Below are positions 31,445 to 44,700 of a stretch of DNA of 64,000 bases, in pieces; within the stretch, counting starts at the first letter, position 1; each line of letters starts with the position of its first letter. The position numbers and the translations under genes are program-made. This stretch comes from Bdellovibrionia bacterium (GTDB lineage: Bacteria; Bdellovibrionota; Bdellovibrionia; Bdellovibrionales; JAGQZY01). Under the pieces are notes generated by a model. It saw only the letters and a program-made list of their open reading frames with translations. It searched no databases and was not told the origin of the DNA. The DNA lies in NCBI GenBank assembly GCA_030427805.1, contig JAUICP010000006.1:202364-266363 (forward strand), written 5' to 3'.

Positions 31445-32059
31445 ATGAAAACGATCTTTCAAATTTGTCTTAGCATTTGGCCACTGATTGTCTTGGGAAT
31501 CAGTCTCGTTTATTGGGCCAAAAAAGATCTTCGTGAAAAGTACAAAATCGATTACCCCAGTCTACTTTGGTGGTCATACACCTTGATCTCTTGGTTTCCA
31601 ATGGGACTCGTTTACTTTGTACTCCCACAACTCGATGAGAGTTTTTATTTTCTCCTCGGCTTAAACGTCTTTGTTTCCTCGATCTTGATAGCTCTTGAAA
31701 TTTATCTCCATATAAAAGGAAAGTTAGATCAGTTAAGACTCCGGGCCGTTGTAAGGATCATTGGTGCTCTTACAGTCATAGTGAGTTTGAGATTTATAGT
31801 GAGACAAGATCTCGATTTAAGTATCAGTGACCTTTTTGCCAGTTTTTATTTGATTGCGGTGGTGTGCTCCCTGGCGGTGGATGCCTATTTCCTACACACG
31901 ACTTACAATCATATCGACTTCGAACCCGGTTATAATCGCTACGCCTGGTACTCTCCCCTAGTCACCCATAGATACGGACTAGAGAAATTAAAACTCATAG
32001 GCTCTTACTTCTTAGTATTTCACCTATTTGCTCAGTTATTTTTTGCAGTCATTATTTAG
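31445..32059 (+). CDS. Multi-pass membrane protein of unknown function
   Basis: The 204-residue protein has five to six hydrophobic segments (about residues 5-25, 40-60, 65-90, 105-120, 130-150 and 185-204), with the charged loop YWAKKDLREKYK after the first. No recognised family. It follows the regulator gene by ~68 bp on the same strand and its stop codon overlaps the stop of the frameshifted ankyrin gene on the other strand. The ribosome site is weak. Function unknown. Confidence 0.6.
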   Translation: MKTIFQICLSIWPLIVLGISLVYWAKKDLREKYKIDYPSLLWWSYTLISWFPMGLVYFVLPQLDESFYFLLGLNVFVSSILIALEIYLHIKGKLDQLRLRAVVRIIGALTVIVSLRFIVRQDLDLSISDLFASFYLIAVVCSLAVDAYFLHTTYNHIDFEPGYNRYAWYSPLVTHRYGLEKLKLIGSYFLVFHLFAQLFFAVII

Positions 32060-32600
32060 GGAGCGTTGACCGTCCCCAAGAAACTAATCACTTCTGACTT
32101 GTTACGAAGTTTGGCCGCGCCTAAGGCTGTTAACCCATTACTCGTTTTCTTAGTGAGATCCGCACCCTTCTGCACTAAAAATTTTACGACATCGAGCTGC
32201 CCATCGGAGCACGCGAATATCAAACTGGTAAAGCCTTCCGTCGACTGTTCGTTTAAGGTCGCCCTTTATCGAGAAGCAGTTTAACCGCTTCTATGTGCCC
32301 TTGCTTTGAGGCTGCCATGAGAGCCGTCATTCCTCGAGCATCTTTGGCGTTGATGTCGGCATTTTTGTTAATTAAAAAATCACTGACCTCTTTATGACCC
32401 TTAAGGGATGCGAGTATAAGCGGCGTTAAGCCTTTGTTTGTCGAGCTATTGACATCAGCTCCCTGGCCAACCAGGTTTTTTACTGTGTCGACATCACCCT
32501 TCATAGCTGATTTTAGAAGATCTTTTCCCAGGTCACCATAGGCACTGACCGAGAATGAAAGTAGGAATACCGCGGTTGTTAGAAGCCGTAACAATTTCAA
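32056..32600 (-). pseudogene. Ankyrin-repeat secreted protein with a frameshift
   Basis: The first 115 codons (32600 down to 32253) give a signal peptide (LLTTAVFLLSFSVSAYG) and about three ankyrin repeats with GLTPLILASLKGH and GMTALMAASKQGH. The frame then stops just after LLLDKG. Re-reading one base, the other frame continues the repeat pattern without a stop: NEQSTEGFTSLIFACSDGQ, then FLVQKGADLTKKTSNGLTAL, ending at TAA (32058-32056). So a single base, probably one G of a GGGG run near 32258, has been lost. It is either a real mutation or a sequencing error. The codons do not fit a -1 slippery heptamer. The intact protein would have about 180 residues. Confidence 0.85.
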
Positions 32601-32689
32601 TTTTCACTCCAATTACCCAAGGTGTCTCTGTAATGGGTAATAATTTACTTGTTTTAGCTTAACAAACCTTGTTGAATAAAGACAATAGC

Positions 32690-34279
32690 CTAAGCAGTCA
32701 TTGTTTCGTCAAAACCACCGTCGTCGTCGTTGTCATCCTCTTCAAATCCAGAATAATCGTCTTGGAATGAGTCATCATTAAGGTCCTCTCCTCCAGAGAT
32801 ATCATCGCCAGAAATAAGACCGTTTAGATTAGAGATCGTCGCCACGAGTGAGTTGGCCTGAGCTCTCAAGGCTTCTGATAAATCCGTTATTGAACGAGCC
32901 ATATCTTTAGTTTCTTCAGCAGATTGATTCAACTCACTCATTGCATCACCAACTTGCTGGATACCAATAGATTGCTCTTTGGCCGAATCCGAAATGGAAT
33001 TGACCATGTTCTTCACTTGGCCTGATCTGTCGTTCAATCCCGTAAACACGCCCGAAGCCTTTTGAGAAATATCATTCGCTGCATTCACCTTTTCTTTGGT
33101 GTTCTCGATGGTCTCAGCAATTCGTTTGGCCGAGTCCTCAAGGAGCTGACCAATTTCGTAAGATGCACTCCCCGAAAGTTCTGCGAGCTTACTCACTTCT
33201 TGGGCAACAACGGCAAAACCTTTACCATACTGTCCTGCACGGGCGGCCTCAATAGATGCGTTAAACGATAGGAGCTGCGTTTTAAAAACGATGTCGTTGA
33301 TGACATCAGTCTTATTGCGAATTAGGTCAACCATATCGTTCACCTCTTGCAGGCGATCATAAATAGCTTCAACCTCTTCCATACTGTCTCGAAGCTCATC
33401 AACAACCACCGTTCCGTTTCTGGCTTCTTCGTAACTGTCTTCTGAAATCTGCACAGCCTGTGTTGAATTATTGAGGGTTTCATCCATCAGAGATTTCATC
33501 TCTGACATACTCGACACAGTTTTGTTGGCCACTTCGGATTGCTCAGTCGACCGCGAGGCCAATTCAACCGAAGCAGAGTTCGCTTGCTCTGAGATTTTCA
33601 GAACTCGTTCCGCCGCTGACTTCAATCGTTCACCCGCCTGAAGAAGTGACTGGTTGATCACAGAGTAAAAGAAAAACGAAAATGGAATCGCAGAAATTAA
33701 AATTACAATTCCGACAATGAGTAGCAAGGTTCCACCAAAGTTTACTGACTCTATCGCAGACCGCATGTTTTTATCGGCTCTTCTCTTAATCGTGGCTAAC
33801 TCTTGCTCCCTCTGAATGAGGTCTTTTGAGTAAGTTCCGATTTTCAATTGAACCGCTGAAAGTTCTTCAAGACCTGCGATTACATTTTGAATGAGTTCGT
33901 TCATTTCAGTAAAGGTCGATGAGTACTTACTTTCGATAACTTTAAAGCGCGTGCTAAATTCCTCATCAATCTGTTTTGCTTTTTGAAACTCTGCAAGCAC
34001 TTCTCGGTTGACCTGATCCAACTCTCCGATCCCTTCCATGTTCTGTGAAAGGGCAGTTTCAACGACGGCAGAGCGGACGGCATTAATTTTATTGGCGAGA
34101 ATTTCTGATTGTTCGATGATTGGTAAGTGGGTATCGACGATGGATTTCAAGTTACTTCGATTGTTTTGTGAAATGACACCATTACTAAGAAAGTAAACCA
34201 GTAGAACCATTAATCCAGAACTTAGAATCGTAATAAACTTCTTCCGGATCGACCAATCTGAAATTTGTCGGCTTATCAT
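32690..34279 (-). CDS. Methyl-accepting chemotaxis protein
   Basis: The 529-residue receptor has an N-terminal helix (~14-34), a four-helix-bundle-like periplasmic sensor (~35-180), a second helix ([21 protein letters not shown]), and a long cytoplasmic coiled coil. The hairpin tip [14 protein letters not shown] and [14 protein letters not shown], which contacts CheA and CheW, is present. No clear HAMP domain is seen. The tail is an unusual ~35-residue Asp/Glu-rich stretch with no NWETF-type CheR tether. GGAGA precedes the ATG. No che genes are in the window. Confidence 0.92.
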
Positions 34280-34611: not shown

Positions 34612-36720
34612 ATGAGCATCAAAAGAATTTTGGCATTAGTGCTCACTCTAGTAAGTGTTAATGCCTTTGCCGACGACAGCGACCTAATTGAGATGTCCCT
34701 TGGTGACCTACTCAATATGGAAGTCGAGTCTGCATCCAGACAGAAAGAGAGTTTAAGGGAAGCACCGGTTCCTGTGACGGTTATTACGAAAGAAATGATC
34801 AAACAGGCTGGTATTCGAAACATTCACGAAGCTTTAATCACTTTTGTACCGGGCTACACCGATGCGGAAGATAGAAACGAGCTTAACTTTGCACCTCGTG
34901 GTATTTACGCTACGTCTCAGCAAAAAGTTCTGATCATGATCAATGGTCACAGAATCAACTCAAGATCTTACCTAACAGCCCAACCTGACTACGGTATAGC
35001 TCTTCACAATGTTGAGCGTATCGAGATCCTTCGTGGTCCTGGTTCTTCACTCTATGGTAACGTTGCCCTTTCAGGAGTGGTAAACCTCATCACAAAAAAG
35101 GGTAAAGACGTTAACGGTACAATGGTTGACGGCTCTTTCGGAAACGCTGGCCAAGGACGCCTCCGTTTTCTACACGGGTCAGGTAGTGATGACTCAGATA
35201 CTCTACTTTGGGGCCAGTTCTATCGTGCTGATGGAACTAAACAAGAGCTTAAGGCTGACGATCCTCACATCGGTGGAGCTGCCAATACTGGCGACTTGCA
35301 AATTGATCGCGTAGACGATCCTCCTGCACATGATTTCGGTATCACTCACTCTAGAGGAAATTGGACATTCTTTGGTGCTTCTCGCCAGACAAATTGGGGC
35401 GAACCCTATGCCAACAACGGTGCATCTGGTGCTTACGAGTACAACGGCTTTAGAACTTTCCGCGGAACGGGCCCTGGACTGGCGATCGGACATCAGCACC
35501 TCGGCGGTAAGTATGTAGGTGAGCTTGGCGGTGGCTGGGGAATTACCGTCAACCCTTACTACGACAACACAAATATTGAAGGAATCCTTGCTACTGCAAA
35601 TGCTACAGGTACAGTTGGCAGCCAGGGCGGCCTTATGATTAGCTGGCAAGATCAAAACATGGGTCTTACTACAACTGTAGACAAAGGCTATGACGACTTC
35701 ATGGGCGGCAAAGGAACTTTCCTCGCTGGTGTCCAAGTTGATACTTTCGAAGTTATTGATTCTATCATCATGGGTATGACGGGCGGTAATTTTAATGGTT
35801 CTGTCGGTAACGCCGGAGTTGGTCTGCCCGACCCTGCGAACACTCCGGGTGCACAACTTCTTGCTCCGGGTTCTGAGGCTATATACTCAGCATTCTTTCA
35901 GAATAAACACTTTTTTAGCGACGAGTTGATTCTGAACTTTGGAGTTCGCTACGACGAAAAAGTGAGAAGAACTGGAAACAACAGGCAGAAAGTCTCTCCA
36001 CGACTCGCTTTTATTTATCTTCCAAGCGATAACTGGGAATTCAAACTTTCTTACTCTCAGTCTTTTGTTGATTCACCTTATTGGTATCGCTACAACTCTT
36101 TGGTTCTTTTTGGTGGAGCAGAAAATACCGATCCAGAAGTTCTTGGAGCAACTCAAGGTGTTGTTACATACACATCTGACGACAAGAAAATCAAGAACAC
36201 ATCTGTTCTCTACTACCAAAACGCAAGTGATTTACTTACGGCTCAAACAACGAACCCGAGATACATCAACTCCGGTCGTGTTGAGAGTATTGGTCTCGAG
36301 AATGAATTTGCTTACCTTGAAGCGAACTGGCAAGCCTTTTGGAACTTCCAGTACTACCAAGCAACTTCGACTATTGATTATACAAAATTCGATGATGCTT
36401 TCGCTCACGTTCCGCAAATTACCAGTAACTTGATTTTTAACTACTACTTCAGCAAAGACTTCCTAACCAACGTAACAGTTCGTTACATTGGTGAACAGAA
36501 GTACGCTGATGGCTCTGCTGATGGAAAAACTGTTGATGCAGCTACCATCTTTAATCTCGGTGCTCGATACGAAAACCTTCTTCTTGAGGGACTTTCACTC
36601 GACGCACGTATTTATAACGTTGGAGATTCTGAGTATCATCAGGGTGGGCAAACTGGATCCGCTCTTCCATTCCTTCAAGCCGGTATGTGGTACATGGCTA
36701 CCGTCGGTTACGAATGGTAG
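34612..36720 (+). CDS. TonB-dependent outer-membrane receptor
   Basis: The 702-residue protein has a signal peptide (RILALVLTLVSVNAFA), a plug domain (~25-160: MSLGDLLNMEVESAS, APVPVTVITKEMI, VERIEILRGPGSSLYG, GVVNLITKKG), and a large barrel ending in Trp (ATVGYEW). It resembles the colicin I/vitamin B12-receptor-like class of siderophore or cofactor importers. The ligand is unknown, and no TonB, ExbB or periplasmic binding protein is adjacent. GAGGGAGA lies before the ATG and a strong terminator follows. Confidence 0.92.
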   Translation: MSIKRILALVLTLVSVNAFADDSDLIEMSLGDLLNMEVESASRQKESLREAPVPVTVITKEMIKQAGIRNIHEALITFVPGYTDAEDRNELNFAPRGIYATSQQKVLIMINGHRINSRSYLTAQPDYGIALHNVERIEILRGPGSSLYGNVALSGVVNLITKKGKDVNGTMVDGSFGNAGQGRLRFLHGSGSDDSDTLLWGQFYRADGTKQELKADDPHIGGAANTGDLQIDRVDDPPAHDFGITHSRGNWTFFGASRQTNWGEPYANNGASGAYEYNGFRTFRGTGPGLAIGHQHLGGKYVGELGGGWGITVNPYYDNTNIEGILATANATGTVGSQGGLMISWQDQNMGLTTTVDKGYDDFMGGKGTFLAGVQVDTFEVIDSIIMGMTGGNFNGSVGNAGVGLPDPANTPGAQLLAPGSEAIYSAFFQNKHFFSDELILNFGVRYDEKVRRTGNNRQKVSPRLAFIYLPSDNWEFKLSYSQSFVDSPYWYRYNSLVLFGGAENTDPEVLGATQGVVTYTSDDKKIKNTSVLYYQNASDLLTAQTTNPRYINSGRVESIGLENEFAYLEANWQAFWNFQYYQATSTIDYTKFDDAFAHVPQITSNLIFNYYFSKDFLTNVTVRYIGEQKYADGSADGKTVDAATIFNLGARYENLLLEGLSLDARIYNVGDSEYHQGGQTGSALPFLQAGMWYMATVGYEW

Positions 36721-37322: not shown

Positions 37323-37483
37323 GGCGGTAGTAGACCTACTACACCGCCGACGCAGTGACGAAGTTAGAACCTGAAGATTTAATTCTTTTAAGGATTTCAT
37401 TGATCGAGGAGCAAGCTTGCAGCTGTGGATTTAACCACTGCAAAAGCGAAGCGACAAAGAAGAATGGAATCCTTAAAAGAATT
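37323..37483. repeat. Nested inverted repeats between pilR and the receiver gene
   Basis: A perfect 16-bp inverted repeat (AATTCTTTTAAGGATT at 37381-37396 and its complement at 37468-37483) encloses 71 bases. Inside is a second hairpin with arms TTGCA/TGCAA and GTGG/CCAC and a 6-nt loop, and a palindrome GCAAGCTTGC. About 30 bp to the left is a separate hairpin (37323-37348, GGCG and GTAGTAG arms). The right 16-bp arm includes the pilR stop. No good T run follows on either strand. It could be a structured 3' UTR, small RNA or small mobile repeat. Confidence 0.7.
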
Positions 37484-38888
37484 ATTCATCGTCGATGTCT
37501 TCGTCGGACATGGAGCCCAGGTTGTATTTCTCAACCCGATACCGCATGGATCTAAAAGTAATCCCAAGTAGCTTAGAGGCTTTTTTCTTCACGCCACCAG
37601 AAGCGTGAATGGCCTTTATGATGAGCTCTTTTTCGATCTGGCCGATGACCTTATCGAGATCGATTCCGTCATCCGTAATTTCGATACCTTCACTGGAAGC
37701 CATCTTACGACCAGAAGGGGTTTGTACGAAAGGTGGCAAACTCTCCGGTAGGATCGTTGCACCAGCTTCAAGAGCCACGGTTCTTTCGATAATGTTTTCG
37801 AGTTCTCGTACGTTACCTGGATAGTCGTACTTTTTAAGAATATCCATGGCTTCTTTACTGATGCTTCCAATGGCCTTATTCAGGCGATCGTTGTACTTCT
37901 TTAAAAAGTGACCTGCAAGAAGACCAACATCATCACGACGATCGCGAAGTGAAGGTGTTTTAATATTAATAACATTAAGACGGTAGAATAAATCCTGTCT
38001 AAATGTTTGATCTTTAACCATGTCCTCAAGGTTTCTATTTGTGGCTGCAATAATTCGAACATTGACGCTCGTATCATCTGTCGAACCGACTCTTCGAATA
38101 ACCCGCTCTTGAATGGCTCTTAATAGTTTTACCTGAATCGAAAGTGGAAGTTCACCGACCTCATCCAAAAATAGAGTTCCGCCATCAGCGACTTCGAACA
38201 TACCTGATTTGTCAGCCACTGCACCCGTAAATGAACCCTTCTTGTGACCAAACATCTCTGATTCCATCAACGATTCAGGGATAGCACCACAGTTTACGGT
38301 AACAAAAGGACGCTCTTTGAGGGGGCCGTTGTAATGAATGGCTTTTGCCACCATTTCCTTACCGGTACCGCTCTCACCAGTGATTAATACATTTGTTGGA
38401 GTCGAAGATACACGCTTGATCAAGTCATAGATCCGATGCATTTCTTCTGAGTTACCAACTAAATTTTGAAAACTATATTCGCGCTCCAATTCTCTTTTGA
38501 GTGAGCGGTTTTCAACTTCTAAGTTCTGAGATTTTAATGCGTTTTGAATATTGATTCGAACTTCATCAATCTTAAAAGGCTTAGTGATATAGTCATAAGC
38601 CCCCATTTTCATCGCTTCTACAGCTGACTCTGTGGTTCCAAAAGCCGTAATCATCATGAAAAGGAGATCGGGGTAATTTTCTTTAACAAATTTTAAAAGT
38701 TCAATCCCAGTGACATTGGGCATCTGTAAATCGGAGATGACCATATCAAATGACTTCTTGCCGAGAATATCTATCGCCTTTTGCCCGTCTTCAACGCAGG
38801 TGACATCATATCCTTCTTTTCGCAGCATTATGTCGAGGAATTCGCGAATAGATTCTTCGTCGTCAACAACTAGGATTCTAGATTTCAT
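37482..38888 (-). CDS. pilR: Sigma-54-dependent response regulator PilR
   Basis: The 468-residue protein is an NtrC-type activator: receiver with phospho-acceptor Asp in MVISDLQMP (~52), AAA+ domain with Walker A GESGTGKE, the sigma-54 contact loop GSFTGA, Walker [14 protein letters not shown]-finger region, and a C-terminal Fis-type HTH ([19 protein letters not shown]). GSFTGA is also the form found in Pseudomonas PilR. Its ATG directly follows the pilS stop (TAAATG). Likely activates pilin and pilus genes; the pilin gene itself is not in the window. Confidence 0.93.
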
Positions 38889-40634
38889 TTAAGTCCCCTT
38901 TACCTTCAGACCTCTATCATCCTTTGATGGACTAAATTCTGCAAGTAATTTTGAGTCTTTAGAGGTTTCACCTGCACCTTCGCCCGACTCTGCACTGGAC
39001 TCTTCAAACTTGGGAAACTCCAAAATAAACTCGGTTCCGACACCAACAGCACTATCTACAAAGATTTTAGCTTGGTGGGATTCTAAAATCTTATGCGTGA
39101 CAGCAAGACCTAGGCCTGTCCCTTTTGGCTTGGTGGTAAGGAAGGGTTCGAAAATTCTTTTCAGGGTTCTTTCGTCCATACCACAACCACTGTCTTTTAC
39201 TTTGAGGAGTATTTTTTGATCAAAGTCTTGGGATTCAACAATAAGGACTGGTTTTTCCGAGGAATCCATCGCTTGGCAGGCATTTATAATAATATTCAAG
39301 AGCGCTTGCTTTAGCTTATCTTGATCTCCCTCAATAAAAGCTGAACCGTCTAACTTCACTTGAAAGTCGATATCGGCACGCAATTTACTATCGACTTTTA
39401 CCATCTCTAGAATATTTCGCACGAGGAGGTTGAGATCCATTTTCTTTAGTTGAGTTTTGTCGGGACGAACAAAGTCCAAAAACTCTGTAATCATATTATT
39501 GAGGCGGTCTATTTCTTTGAGAGTAATTCTCATCAACTTTTTCTCATCACTCATCTCATTGGCTTCGAGCAAACCTTCCATCATTTGAATCGATCCACTG
39601 ATGCTGGCTAAAGGGTTGCGAATTTCATGGGCAATCCCGGCGGCCAATTGCCCAACAGCAGCAAGTTTTTCAGACTGCCTCATAGCACTCTCAAGCCTTC
39701 GAATTTTGGTTAAATCTTGAAAGGTTAAGATGTAGCCAGTGAGCCGACTTTCCTCGTCGCGAAGTGGAGAAACTGTGAGCCCAATGAGCTTTTTTTCTCC
39801 GAATCCGGCTTCGTAGTTAAAGTCTCTCTCGACCCGCCGCTTTCCAGTATCGATAAAATTCTGCTCTTTAATCCAATCAACAAATCCATCGAGAAGTAGA
39901 TCCACGGAGCGGCCTAAATAATCTGATTCATTAATTTCGAGTATTTCTTCACCCGCAGAATTAACTTGCAGCATCTCCCCTTCGGAATCCACCGTAATCA
40001 TTCCCGTTGCCATATTCTGAATGACCAGCTGATTGAAGTTCTTTAGGGCTCTTAAGTCCTTACCCCGAGCCTGGAGCTCACTTCCCATAAAATTTAATTG
40101 TTCAGAGAGGTAGCCAGCGAGTCCTGCCACAGCAAAAAAGGCCAGGTTATTGACTCCCACAGCGAAGTACAATGTCTGGCCTCTGACTTCCGGCCCAAAA
40201 ATGAGGAGCAAACTAAAGAGCATGGACGTCCAAAGAGCGAGAATTAATGCTCCCTTTCTCTGAAAGACAAATCCACAAAGAATAATATTTACGAGATATA
40301 GAAATAAAAAAATCGACTGATTGATTCCAGAAAAGAATATCAAGAGCGTTATATAGAATGTGTCGAAGGCAAAAACTAGGGAGACGGCTGTTTTGCTCGA
40401 TATAACCTTCTCAAAAAATAGAAGAACAAGGATATCGATTATGAAAGTCGAAGTCAGGACGACAAAAACTGGAAACAGAACATCAAAATTGACGAAGTCA
40501 GCCTGAAGGGACTGAAAGGCAATTGCTATGAATAAAACTGCAACCTGAAACAGAATCCGAACTGCAGTAATGATCAGCATTTGCGAGCGGTTTTTTGAAA
40601 AACCAAATTTTGTGAGTTGTTCCGCCTCAATCAA
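38889..40634 (-). CDS. pilS: Sensor histidine kinase PilS
   Basis: The 581-residue kinase has about six membrane helices (~20-180), a PAS domain (~205-310), a HisKA domain with phospho-acceptor His in GIAHEIRNPLAS, and an HATPase domain with GSGCGM (GMDERTLKRIFEPF) and GTGLGLAV. The order matches PilS, partner of PilR. A short Ser/Glu/Lys tail follows. Translation probably starts at a TTG. It lies 31 bp after pilC and abuts pilR, so it is translated in the same operon. Confidence 0.92.
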   Translation of the reverse strand: MIEAEQLTKFGFSKNRSQMLIITAVRILFQVAVLFIAIAFQSLQADFVNFDVLFPVFVVLTSTFIIDILVLLFFEKVISSKTAVSLVFAFDTFYITLLIFFSGINQSIFLFLYLVNIILCGFVFQRKGALILALWTSMLFSLLLIFGPEVRGQTLYFAVGVNNLAFFAVAGLAGYLSEQLNFMGSELQARGKDLRALKNFNQLVIQNMATGMITVDSEGEMLQVNSAGEEILEINESDYLGRSVDLLLDGFVDWIKEQNFIDTGKRRVERDFNYEAGFGEKKLIGLTVSPLRDEESRLTGYILTFQDLTKIRRLESAMRQSEKLAAVGQLAAGIAHEIRNPLASISGSIQMMEGLLEANEMSDEKKLMRITLKEIDRLNNMITEFLDFVRPDKTQLKKMDLNLLVRNILEMVKVDSKLRADIDFQVKLDGSAFIEGDQDKLKQALLNIIINACQAMDSSEKPVLIVESQDFDQKILLKVKDSGCGMDERTLKRIFEPFLTTKPKGTGLGLAVTHKILESHQAKIFVDSAVGVGTEFILEFPKFEESSAESGEGAGETSKDSKLLAEFSPSKDDRGLKVKGT

Positions 40635-40665
40635 TTGATGATCCTAAGTAAATTCGTTGAGCCTA

Positions 40666-41880
40666 TTAGCCGCCGGCCATAGCTCCAGCCATGTTGAATA
40701 TCGGCAAGTACATCGCAATAACTAGGACTGCGATAATTCCACCAAGAACAACCATCAGCAAAGGCTCCATGGCTGCAGTCAACGCTCCAACAGATGCATC
40801 AACCTCATCTTCATAAAAATCCGCAATTTTACTTAACATAGTATCGAGCGCACCAGTTTGCTCTCCAACACCAACCATCTGAGTCACCATTGAAGGAACA
40901 TACTTCTCTTTAGAAAGTGGAACAGTCATAGATTTACCTTGAGAGATGGCATCTTTAGCTCTGAAAAATGCCTGCTCAAGAACGATATTTCCAGCGACTC
41001 GAGCCGCAATATCCATTGACTCCATAATCCCCACACCGGCGGCAACAAGCGTGCTCAGTGTTCGAGAAAATTTCGCAATCGCACCCTTTTGAATAACATC
41101 ACCAATAAGAGGAACATCAATTAGAATTGCATCAACCGTATTTTTCCCGTCTGGAGTTCTGTAGTAGTTACGCAACAGAAAGACGGCAAATCCGGCACCA
41201 CCAAAAATTATATACCAGTAAGAAACAAAGAACCGACTTGCATCGACCACGTACTGGGTTAATGCTGGTAATTCTTGGTTCATTGAAGCAAAAAGTTCCT
41301 CAAAGTTTGGAATCACAAAAATCATAATCGCGGCAATAACTAGAAACGCGACAACAATAATTGCTGCGGGATAAATCATTGCACCTTTGATTTTACCAGT
41401 TAACTTAACGTTTTTCTCGATATACTCCGCCAGACGTTCGAGAACAATATCGAGCACACCACCCTCTTCCCCAGCTTTCACCATATTGACATAAAATGTG
41501 TCAAAAACGAGTGGATACTGAGCAAGAGCATCTCCAAGCCGTTTACCAGAACCAATGAGATTCACTACTTCTTGAAGAGTATTTGCTAAGGATACGTTTT
41601 TAGATCCTTTTGCGAGGACCTCGAGACTTTGAACAACGGGAATACCAGCACCCAATAGGGTTGAGAACTGGCGAGTTAAAATTTGTAAATCTTTGGCTTT
41701 AACTTTTTTAACACCGTATGATTTAGAAAGAGCTGCTCGCTCCTCTTTTGATGTTACTTTTACCGGTATTAACTTTTGTGCACGAAGCTTTACTCGGGCT
41801 TCAGCCTCATTAGAGGCTTCGATCTCACCCTTGAGACTTTTTCCCGTCATCGATTTTGCTTCGAACACAAAACTTGCCAT
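40666..41880 (-). CDS. pilC: Type IV pilus inner-membrane platform protein PilC
   Basis: The 404-residue protein has the two GspF/PilC domains (~70-195 and ~275-400), each with RQFSTLLGAGIPVVQSL- and FSRTLSTLVAAGVGIM-type motifs and following membrane helices (three in total). It anchors the PilB and PilT motors. Its ATG overlaps the pilT stop as TAATG, indicating coupling. Confidence 0.96.
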   Translation of the reverse strand: MASFVFEAKSMTGKSLKGEIEASNEAEARVKLRAQKLIPVKVTSKEERAALSKSYGVKKVKAKDLQILTRQFSTLLGAGIPVVQSLEVLAKGSKNVSLANTLQEVVNLIGSGKRLGDALAQYPLVFDTFYVNMVKAGEEGGVLDIVLERLAEYIEKNVKLTGKIKGAMIYPAAIIVVAFLVIAAIMIFVIPNFEELFASMNQELPALTQYVVDASRFFVSYWYIIFGGAGFAVFLLRNYYRTPDGKNTVDAILIDVPLIGDVIQKGAIAKFSRTLSTLVAAGVGIMESMDIAARVAGNIVLEQAFFRAKDAISQGKSMTVPLSKEKYVPSMVTQMVGVGEQTGALDTMLSKIADFYEDEVDASVGALTAAMEPLLMVVLGGIIAVLVIAMYLPIFNMAGAMAGG

Positions 41881-42950
41881 TATAATAATCCGGCCTTCTT
41901 AATCATGGTGTTTAATTGATCAGGATCGGGACTCGCCCCAAATGCTGACTTAAACTCTATTTTTTTCTGCATTAATAATGATAACAGAGATTGGTTCATT
42001 GTTACCATACCTGTATTCTCTTGCCCGACTTGCATCATACTTTGGATCTGATGAAGTTTGTTTTCACGTATCAAATTGCGAATATTGGGGCTCAAAACGA
42101 GAAACTCAATGGCCACAGCTCGACCACCACCTATTGTCGGTAAAAGTCTCTGACTGATCACTCCCTGGAGGGTAAAGCTCAGCATAACCCTAATTCTCTC
42201 TTGTTGATCGGACGGAAACACCGAAACAATACGATTTATCGTTTGAACAGCGGAGTTTGTGTGAAGAGTGGCAAAAACAAGGTGACCCGTTTCTGCCAAG
42301 GTCAGCCCAGTTTCAATTGTTTCAAGATCTCGAAGCTCCCCGATCATACAGTAATCGGGATCCTGTCGCAGAATGTGCTTAAGTGCCGACTGATAGGTCT
42401 CTGTATCCGTTCCCACCTCTCTCTGGTTGACGATACAGTTTTTGTGGCTGTGTAAAAATTCGATGGGATCTTCAAGGGTGATGATGTGACCCCATTTGTC
42501 CTGGTTAATTTTATCCACGAGAGAGGCAATGGTTGTCGACTTACCCGAACCCGTTGGCCCCGTTACTAAAACCATTCCGTAGGGTAAATTGGTTAGCTCA
42601 GCGACTGCCGACGGAAGGCCTAGGTCTTCGTACTTAGGAACAAAAACGGGAACTCGACGAAAAACTCCAGACACAGAATTTCTTTGAAAAAAGTAATTGG
42701 AACGAAACCGCGCCATATTTTTTACATCAAAAGAAAAATCCAATTCCTTCTTTTCTTCGAATCGACTCTTTTGATAATCGTTAAGAACTGAGTAGCACAG
42801 TCTTCGAGTTTGCTCTTTTGTTAATTTATCAGTTTTTACTCTAACAATTCGACCATCGACTCGAAGAGCTGGTTGTGAGCCAGCCACAATATGAAGATCC
42901 GAAGCTCCTTGCTCGGTTGCAAATTTCAAAAGTTGGAGAAGCGTAATCAT
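41880..42950 (-). CDS. pilT: Type IV pilus retraction ATPase PilT
   Basis: The 356-residue hexameric motor has an N-terminal PAS-like ASDLHIVAGSQPALRVDG segment, Walker A TGPTGSGKST, Asp box EDPIEF, Walker B GELRDLETIETGL, and His box TGHLVFATLHTNSA. The C-terminal retraction-linked AIRNLIRE-type motif appears as NIRNLIRENK. Depolymerises pili, driving twitching movement. Located between pilB and pilC. Confidence 0.96.
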   Translation of the reverse strand: MITLLQLLKFATEQGASDLHIVAGSQPALRVDGRIVRVKTDKLTKEQTRRLCYSVLNDYQKSRFEEKKELDFSFDVKNMARFRSNYFFQRNSVSGVFRRVPVFVPKYEDLGLPSAVAELTNLPYGMVLVTGPTGSGKSTTIASLVDKINQDKWGHIITLEDPIEFLHSHKNCIVNQREVGTDTETYQSALKHILRQDPDYCMIGELRDLETIETGLTLAETGHLVFATLHTNSAVQTINRIVSVFPSDQQERIRVMLSFTLQGVISQRLLPTIGGGRAVAIEFLVLSPNIRNLIRENKLHQIQSMMQVGQENTGMVTMNQSLLSLLMQKKIEFKSAFGASPDPDQLNTMIKKAGLL

Positions 42951-42993
42951 AGACGTATCATATCAATATGACTCAGTAAAAAGCTATCAGAAT

Positions 42994-44700
42994 CTAATCA
43001 AGCTCGTCCTTTAAAGTCACACTTAGGACTTGCTCAATTGAGGTTTCCCCCTTCTTAAGCTTTTCTAAAGCAGCCATCCTTAGAGTTCTTGTTCCACTCT
43101 CGACCGCCGCCCGCTTAATACCTACAGGAGTCGCTCCGGTGATAATAGCCTCTCTAAGGTGATCCGTCATATTGACGAGTTCGTAGATTGCCATACGACC
43201 CACATAGCCCGTGTCATTACATTCGCGACAACCAACTGGCTTGTGAATTTTGTAAAAGTCGACCTCTGCCTCCTCTACACCTAAGTCCAGGAGCAGTTGG
43301 CGCTCTACTCGGTGCTCCGCCTTACAGTGATTACACAGTCGACTAATTAGACGCTGGGCTAAAATTACTGAAATCGAGGAAGTAATTAAGTATGTCGGAA
43401 CTCCCATATCCATCAAACGAACAATGGTCGAAGGCGCATCGTTCGTGTGAAGTGTACTCATCACCATATGCCCTGTCGAAGCCGCCTTAAATGCGATATC
43501 GGCAGTTTCTTTGTCACGAATCTCACCGACTAGAACGATATCGGGATCTTGACGAAGAAAGGCCCTGAGAGCGTGAGCAAATCCAAACTCAATTTTGGGA
43601 TTAATTTGTACCTGGTTAACACCATCAATGCTAAATTCGACCGGATCCTCGGCTGTCGAAATATTTTTAGTCGGATTATTAAGTTCTTGAAGTGAAGAGT
43701 ACAAGGTCGTCGTCTTACCAGAACCCGTAGGACCAGTCACTAAAACCATTCCCTGGGGCCTATGAATGGCCTCGAGAAATACTTTGAGTTCCTTTTCTTC
43801 AAATCCGAGATCTCTTAAATCAAGTTTCAAATTACTCTTATCAAGAATCCTCATCACAATTTTCTCACCGTGAATTGTCGGCAAACAATTCACACGAAAA
43901 TCGACATAGACACCTTGATTCGTCTTAATTCGAATTCGACCATCTTGAGGTTTTCTACGCTCGGCGATGTCCATATTGGCCATGATCTTAATACGACTGG
44001 CAAGGACATCTTTAATACCTTTTGGTGGTTGAACTTTTTCAATGAGCTTGCCATCTTTTCGAAAGCGAACTCGCAAGTTCTTTTCGTAGGGCTCAACATG
44101 GATATCAGAAACACCGAGCTTAATAGCCTCAGCTAATGTCATATTCACGAATTTGATAACGGCACTATTGGTCTCATCATCAATTTGGTGAATATCAACT
44201 GCTTTTTGTCCTTCGACATCTTGGTCGTCTTCAATTTCAGAAATGACGTTGTCATATTCCTCTTGCTTGCTTCGATCGTAATAGCGCTCAATCGCTCTAA
44301 GAATAGCAACTTCACTGGCGACCATGACTTCAATTTTATGACGAGTTAAAAATTGAAGATCATCTTTGACAAAAATATTACTGGGATCGGCAAAGGCAAC
44401 AACGAGTGTGTTTCCTGCTTTCGAAACGGGGAAAACCATATGTTTTAAACAAATTTCTCGAGGCATTAATTCGGTCAGCTCTTCATCGATTTCGAAGCTT
44501 TCGAGATCAATCGCAGGTACACCGTACTGCTCTGAAAGAAATTGAGTTAATTGAGAGTCTTCGACATATCCGAGTCTAACAAGAGCTTTCGCAAGTGATT
44601 CACCGTCGTTACGACGAACTGCCTTTTTCGCCTTCTCTAACTGCTCGGAGTCTATTAGCTCCTTTTGGACCATTAAAGGACCGAGATCTCTTTCTTTCAT
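42994..44700 (-). CDS. pilB: Type IV pilus extension ATPase PilB
   Basis: The 568-residue protein has an N-terminal MshEN-like domain (~1-150), a PAS-like SDIHVEPYEKNLRVRFRKDG segment, Walker A TGPTGSGKTTT, Asp box EDPVEF, Walker B GEIRDKETADIAF, and a tetracysteine zinc motif (CNHC...CREC). Powers pilus assembly. It is first in the pilB-pilT-pilC-pilS-pilR operon; AGGCC-preceded ATG (GGAGG upstream). The MshEN region in many bacteria binds c-di-GMP; whether the binding residues are kept here was not resolved. Confidence 0.96.
   Translation of the reverse strand: MKERDLGPLMVQKELIDSEQLEKAKKAVRRNDGESLAKALVRLGYVEDSQLTQFLSEQYGVPAIDLESFEIDEELTELMPREICLKHMVFPVSKAGNTLVVAFADPSNIFVKDDLQFLTRHKIEVMVASEVAILRAIERYYDRSKQEEYDNVISEIEDDQDVEGQKAVDIHQIDDETNSAVIKFVNMTLAEAIKLGVSDIHVEPYEKNLRVRFRKDGKLIEKVQPPKGIKDVLASRIKIMANMDIAERRKPQDGRIRIKTNQGVYVDFRVNCLPTIHGEKIVMRILDKSNLKLDLRDLGFEEKELKVFLEAIHRPQGMVLVTGPTGSGKTTTLYSSLQELNNPTKNISTAEDPVEFSIDGVNQVQINPKIEFGFAHALRAFLRQDPDIVLVGEIRDKETADIAFKAASTGHMVMSTLHTNDAPSTIVRLMDMGVPTYLITSSISVILAQRLISRLCNHCKAEHRVERQLLLDLGVEEAEVDFYKIHKPVGCRECNDTGYVGRMAIYELVNMTDHLREAIITGATPVGIKRAAVESGTRTLRMAALEKLKKGETSIEQVLSVTLKDELD

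Follow-up and report, generated by a model that had tools for sequence, protein, structure and literature searches.

The window, the whole 64 kb stretch of DNA analysed, comes from a Bdellovibrionia bacterium (genome G000, 4.5 Mb in 11 contigs, 98.9% complete). It carries a broken ankyrin-repeat gene that lies on the same strand as a gene encoding a methyl-accepting chemotaxis protein (MCP), 89 bp downstream of it. The features of this region are the following, with coordinates given in the window:

31445–32059, plus strand: protein of 204 aa that lacks a Pfam match; its gene converges on the ankyrin gene, and the stop codons of the two overlap
32056–32265, minus strand: tail of the ankyrin gene, in the -1 frame, with the remaining repeats (Pfam Ank_4 1.4e-8)
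32253–32265, minus strand: overlap of both open frames, with the one-base shift here or at its edge
32253–32600, minus strand: head of the ankyrin gene, a 115-aa ORF with a TTG start after GGAG and a premature stop
32690–34279, minus strand: methyl-accepting chemotaxis protein, 529 aa (MCPsignal 3.1e-34)
34612–36720, plus strand: TonB-dependent outer-membrane receptor, divergent from the MCP gene

The head ORF has an N terminus that resembles a signal peptide when judged by eye, contains three ankyrin repeats (Pfam Ank 1.8e-20) and ends in ...LLLDKGRP* at its C terminus. The -1 frame is open for 69 residues, from 32265 to a stop at 32056 that overlaps the 3' end of the convergent gene for the 204-aa protein, and independently of the head it matches Ank_4 and also Ank_2 (2.3e-8). 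The ankyrin-repeat content is thus taken from Pfam, and export of the product is read from the signal peptide by eye. Because head and tail each match ankyrin profiles alone, the tail is not a chance frame, and since the two open frames overlap at 32253–32265, the shift is located there. A tail-only search of four genomes returned the C-terminal portions of the same intact relatives whose corresponding portion was returned by a head-only search. An earlier reading of this DNA from the sequence alone (the sequence-only reading) had described an ankyrin gene split by a one-base frameshift, with a first frame ending after LLLDKG and a second frame continuing the repeats. This description is borne out and its coordinates are right; the strand, which it did not give, is minus. 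Its wording of a perfect ankyrin sequence in the tail is overstated, as tail identity to the 11 aligned relatives is 33–47%, and its proposed loss of one G from GGGG near 32258 is not established; the sequence has three G at the site.

The frame is broken here, whereas each of 11 aligned full-length relatives, which entered the alignment as ORFs from fetched loci, has one open frame. A search of 143 genomes of the class with the protein from genome G040 gave matches below E 1e-25 only in G040, G120, G032, G001, G141 and G000. Two paralogue rows of this search include an internal stop, which is the natural stop codon of the gene, reached at the end of the match. Three full-length paralogues of 170–172 aa, each in a single open frame, are encoded in the genome of the window itself, two in tandem on contig C1 close to a cytochrome oxidase gene (COX1/FixO) and the third on contig C7 adjoining a carbonic anhydrase gene. 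Their dN/dS values against the orthologues in the sister genome G001 are 0.040, 0.054 and 0.056, which indicates purifying selection on them. In a tree of 21 selected rows from fetched loci, the window gene, represented by its head only, forks with four MCP-linked ankyrin proteins and with a second G040 protein, G040b, at moderate support (82/90), and lies outside the clade of the same-genus paralogues (100/98). G040b has no MCP gene beside it.

The neighbourhood of the ankyrin gene is conserved. An intact ankyrin gene is found directly 3' of a homologous MCP gene on the same strand in G040 and G120 (both family f4) and in G032 (family f10), with gaps of 16, 33 and -4 bp, respectively, as measured by longest ORF, versus 89 bp in the window. 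The ankyrin gene of G141 (family f11) is divergent from an MCP N-terminal fragment at a contig end, which matches the MCP N terminus with pairwise E values of 1e-7 and 1e-9, and is followed by a response-regulator gene and a CheA-type gene. Relatives of the MCP at E<=1e-55 are present in 7 of the 143 class genomes, among the best 10 candidates per genome. The match in G128 spans residues 182–491 only, and no ankyrin gene was seen beside this MCP-like gene. The other six genomes (G000, G001, G014, G032, G040 and G120) encode a full-length MCP, with a TonB-dependent receptor gene near it in four of them; the MCP gene of G014 has neither an ankyrin gene nor this TonB receptor gene beside it. A genome-contig search with the window MCP returned the sister G001 alone.

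The TonB receptor of the window is found in 6 of the 143 class genomes at 1e-40 and in 6 of 368 phylum genomes at E<=1e-100, and these are the same six genomes from four genera (G000, G001, G032, G044, G120 and G124). All six receptor genes adjoin chemotaxis genes or sit within about 1.5 kb of them. The chemotaxis neighbour is the MCP gene in G000, G001, G032 and G120, the distance in G120 being about 1.4 kb with a methionine sulfoxide reductase gene between; the neighbours are an MCP gene and a CheR/CheB gene in G044, and CheW and CheA in G124. Three of the six genomes combine receptor, MCP and ankyrin gene, intact or broken, and the receptor loci of G044 and G124 end at contig edges, beyond which an ankyrin gene may or may not lie. 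The MCP-linked ankyrin gene of G040 has no such TonB receptor gene beside it. Among 59 relatives searched, the 204-aa protein turned up in two, both members of this genus. On a separate contig of G040 (C31; L063 4565–7230), a second ankyrin gene is followed by a gene for a different TonB-type receptor with a Plug domain.

The sister comparison was made with G001 alone, a metagenome-assembled Bdellovibrionia bacterium and the only same-genus genome compared. In G001, 107 bp lie between the stop of the MCP gene and the convergent gene for the 204-aa protein, and the ankyrin gene is missing between these conserved flanks. The best ankyrin match elsewhere in G001 is 50% identical and is a paralogue. 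Within the gap lies a 30-bp stretch like the middle of the ankyrin gene (25/30 identical, E 0.002 in a local blastn comparison). When a 36-base core was mononucleotide-shuffled 2000 times, the observed score was reached in 5 cases. This similarity makes a deletion that left a remnant likely, and the gap probably retains about 30 bp of the ankyrin gene. Gain of the gene in the window lineage was set aside, given the MCP-ankyrin pair in families f4 and f10 and the probable remnant in G001. The ankyrin gene is dispensable in a close relative, as it is absent in G001, the one same-genus genome.

The flanking genes were compared with those of G001 by identity and by dN/dS. The MCP is identical at 527 of 529 positions (rank 12 among 150 gene pairs with products of 150 aa or more), the TonB receptor at 536 of 541 over the part on the sister's contig (rank 31), and the 204-aa neighbour at 182 of 204 (rank 138), with dN/dS values of 0.0037, 0.012 and 0.196, respectively. 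The identity and low dN/dS of MCP and receptor indicate that both are strongly maintained though the ankyrin gene is gone in G001. As G001 lost the gene apparently by deletion, the genus seems to tolerate or favour this loss while keeping receptor and MCP. In the same comparison, the MCP gene (window 32690–34279; L056 1958–3547) has the highest dS of six window genes compared, 0.55, in strong and unexplained contrast with its dN of 0.002.

The age of the break was judged from the conservation of the two halves. The tail is 47, 45, 47 and 33% identical to the MCP-linked orthologues G040a, G032, G120 and G141, and the head 58, 51, 55 and 56%; these four orthologues show 30–48% identity among themselves in their tails and 44–53% in their heads. 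The head shows no sign of relaxation (51–58% versus 44–53%), a pattern that either an error or continued use of the truncated protein would produce. Conservation of the tail equals that seen within the intact orthologues, which makes the break look much younger than the separation of the two species. Neutral drift was simulated with 2000 runs per value of d, started from three intact tails with G141 left out. For d=0.02, 0.05, 0.10, 0.17 and 0.25, the fraction of runs with a still open tail whose mean identity was at least that observed was 0.0835, 0.0195, 0.0020, 0.0005 (1/2000) and 0, respectively, and the simulated mean tail identity at d=0.17 was 0.340 versus 0.464 observed. This test is somewhat harsh, in that intact undrifted controls gave 0.445, 0.461 and 0.469, of which only one reaches 0.464; since the observed value is above two of three controls, the fractions are small even at little drift. 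The dS between the species is 0.15–0.64 in nine genes compared, and with a typical dS of 0.35, d=0.17 corresponds to about half of the species divergence. The suggestion that the tail was coding until recently is supported both by its similarity to the intact controls and by the simulation at d=0.17. The break is probably much younger than the species split, or it is not real.

One observation points the other way. The remnant in G001 can be aligned to the window straight through the shift site with no gap, which taken alone would make the frameshift older than the species split. This alignment is not decisive because the left deletion end of G001 lies at the same spot, and an origin of the frameshift before the split was set aside on tail conservation, despite the gapless remnant.

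The explanation that we favour, and consider likely on these sequence comparisons, is that an exported ankyrin protein has been lost by a recent one-base frameshift here and by deletion in the sister, and that this loss is tolerated in the genus. The frame break is known from one assembly of one strain, and a sequencing or assembly error, with the gene intact in the organism, is an unlikely but serious competitor, to which the apparently full constraint on both head and tail lends weight. Against an error, the 167 comparable genes in the assembly parts examined, with 175,584 aligned coding bases, show no frame break. By the rule of three this bounds the error rate (95%) at about one per 58 kb and still permits about one in a stretch as long as the window. 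This control used 172 ORFs of G001, of which 167 matched at least 75% in fetched stretches of G000. Six were flagged and all are otherwise explained: two giant ORFs match partly, three have a stop upstream of the likely start, within a 5' extension, and the sixth encodes a lysine-rich protein for which both ORFs are open. The reverse control flagged 19 of 166 G000 ORFs against G001, 7 to 8 of them at stretch ends, and includes at least two apparent frame breaks in G001 (C1_13172 and C1_49441); a smaller version of the control flagged 4 and 14. Real frame breaks are rare in the shared genes of G000. The shift site also contains no long homopolymer, and the absence of the gene from the only sister genome, G001, makes a real loss more likely than an error and tips the balance. 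The frameshift is probably real, recent and gene-inactivating. Among the origins listed in the sequence-only reading, namely a fresh mutation, phase variation at a short G run or a sequencing error, the fresh mutation is thus favoured and phase variation finds no support, with no tandem repeat at the three-G site.

The giant ORFs met in this comparison are an observation in their own right. An ORF of 2632 aa on contig C11 of G000 (about 109295–117193) has a sister counterpart of 2456 aa, and the two are alike only in part, with 77–81% identity in the matching pieces. A further ORF of 2693 aa in G001 matches over 29 residues only.

A functional truncation or split, in which the 115-aa head functions by itself or re-initiation yields a separate tail, is very unlikely. 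The head does retain its signal-peptide-like start and three repeats, and a TTG at 32223 in the tail frame, with a purine-rich stretch upstream, could serve for re-initiation. Against this, the 11 aligned relatives are full length, a separate tail would be without a signal peptide, and the sister is without nearly the whole gene. In 32000–32760, promoter- and terminator-like sites stayed near the mean of shuffled sequences. Programmed -1 frameshifting or phase variation yielding some full-length protein is the least probable explanation and hardly credible: both frames are open and overlapping at the site, but there is no tandem repeat tract at the frame break, the longest G/C run in the window is 6, the site codons form no standard slippery heptamer by eye, the downstream RNA (80 nt) has a z of 0.62 with 148 of 200 shuffles folding at least as well, and the 11 aligned relatives use a single frame with no conserved frame switch, so that neither a mutable tract nor a slippery site nor a stimulatory structure was found.

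Under loss by recent frameshift, the intact gene product would be an exported ankyrin-repeat protein of about 180 residues, with export predicted from the signal peptide seen by eye, and would probably be made together with the adjacent chemoreceptor. The one-base frameshift in the window lineage would truncate this protein after the third repeat and probably abolish its function, giving a young pseudogene or a null allele that still segregates. In the sister species a deletion seems to have removed this gene, and the genus would then tolerate or favour loss of the ankyrin protein while receptor and MCP stay. The locus resembles ordinary frameshifted pseudogenes in its single small indel, its recognisable halves and the missing gene in a relative, and differs from them only in its chemosensory context.

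A known counterpart is Bd3460 of Bdellovibrio bacteriovorus, a periplasmic ankyrin self-protection protein (PMC4686830; PDB 5cea) that has six repeats, binds DD-endopeptidases and is encoded directly downstream of its partner gene, a DD-endopeptidase (PMC4686830). The window protein is likewise a small, predicted-exported ankyrin protein of the same bacterial group whose gene lies 3' of that of its presumed partner; unlike Bd3460, it is paired with an MCP and not with a DD-endopeptidase. By this likeness, the intact protein would most likely be a periplasmic binding partner of a protein encoded in its own gene group, much as Bd3460 binds the DD-endopeptidase, and from gene order only, it may bind the MCP or the TonB receptor. 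AnkB of Pseudomonas aeruginosa, a periplasmic ankyrin protein encoded beside its partner gene, a catalase, is similar in adjoining the gene of a presumed partner, which here is a chemoreceptor. A Bd3460-type self-protection ankyrin was set aside, as the upstream gene encodes an MCP and, in the tree, in which Bd3460 itself was not included, the clade with the Bd3460-like G054 protein (97/93) does not contain the window head. The G054 protein matches Bd3460 end to end (3–219, E 9.7e-33), and longer ankyrins score higher. Three further candidates were rejected: NCBIfam matches to type IV secretion system ankyrin effectors are far below the cut-offs and cover repeats only, the NCBIfam match to MzaA is far below its cut-off, and matches to ankyrin-containing PADLOC models, which are without curated cut-offs, are read as repeat matches (the strongest, to PDC-M72A at 2.7e-17, covers a portion of the model).

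As a mutation the frameshift is ordinary and of little weight by itself; its context matters more. The TonB receptor-ankyrin-MCP set is conserved within Bdellovibrionia and is more interesting than the frameshift, and among the titles and abstract openings listed in literature searches there is no description of such a gene set. Its composition suggests a putative periplasmic relay from the outer-membrane receptor to the chemoreceptor. In a more specific and rather doubtful version, a periplasmic adaptor would link the TonB receptor to the chemoreceptor so that ligand capture steers motility, with receptor and MCP in this genus now independent of the adaptor, which is being lost separately in two species. 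If the three proteins act together, they would form an unusual example of a chemotaxis pathway that receives input from an outer-membrane receptor, and this genus, by its loss of the ankyrin gene, would offer a natural test of the need for the ankyrin part.

Beyond the receptor gene, the window encodes type IV pilus-like regulatory and assembly proteins at 37482–44700, comprising a sigma-54 response regulator, a PilS-like kinase, a T2SSF protein and two T2SSE ATPases.
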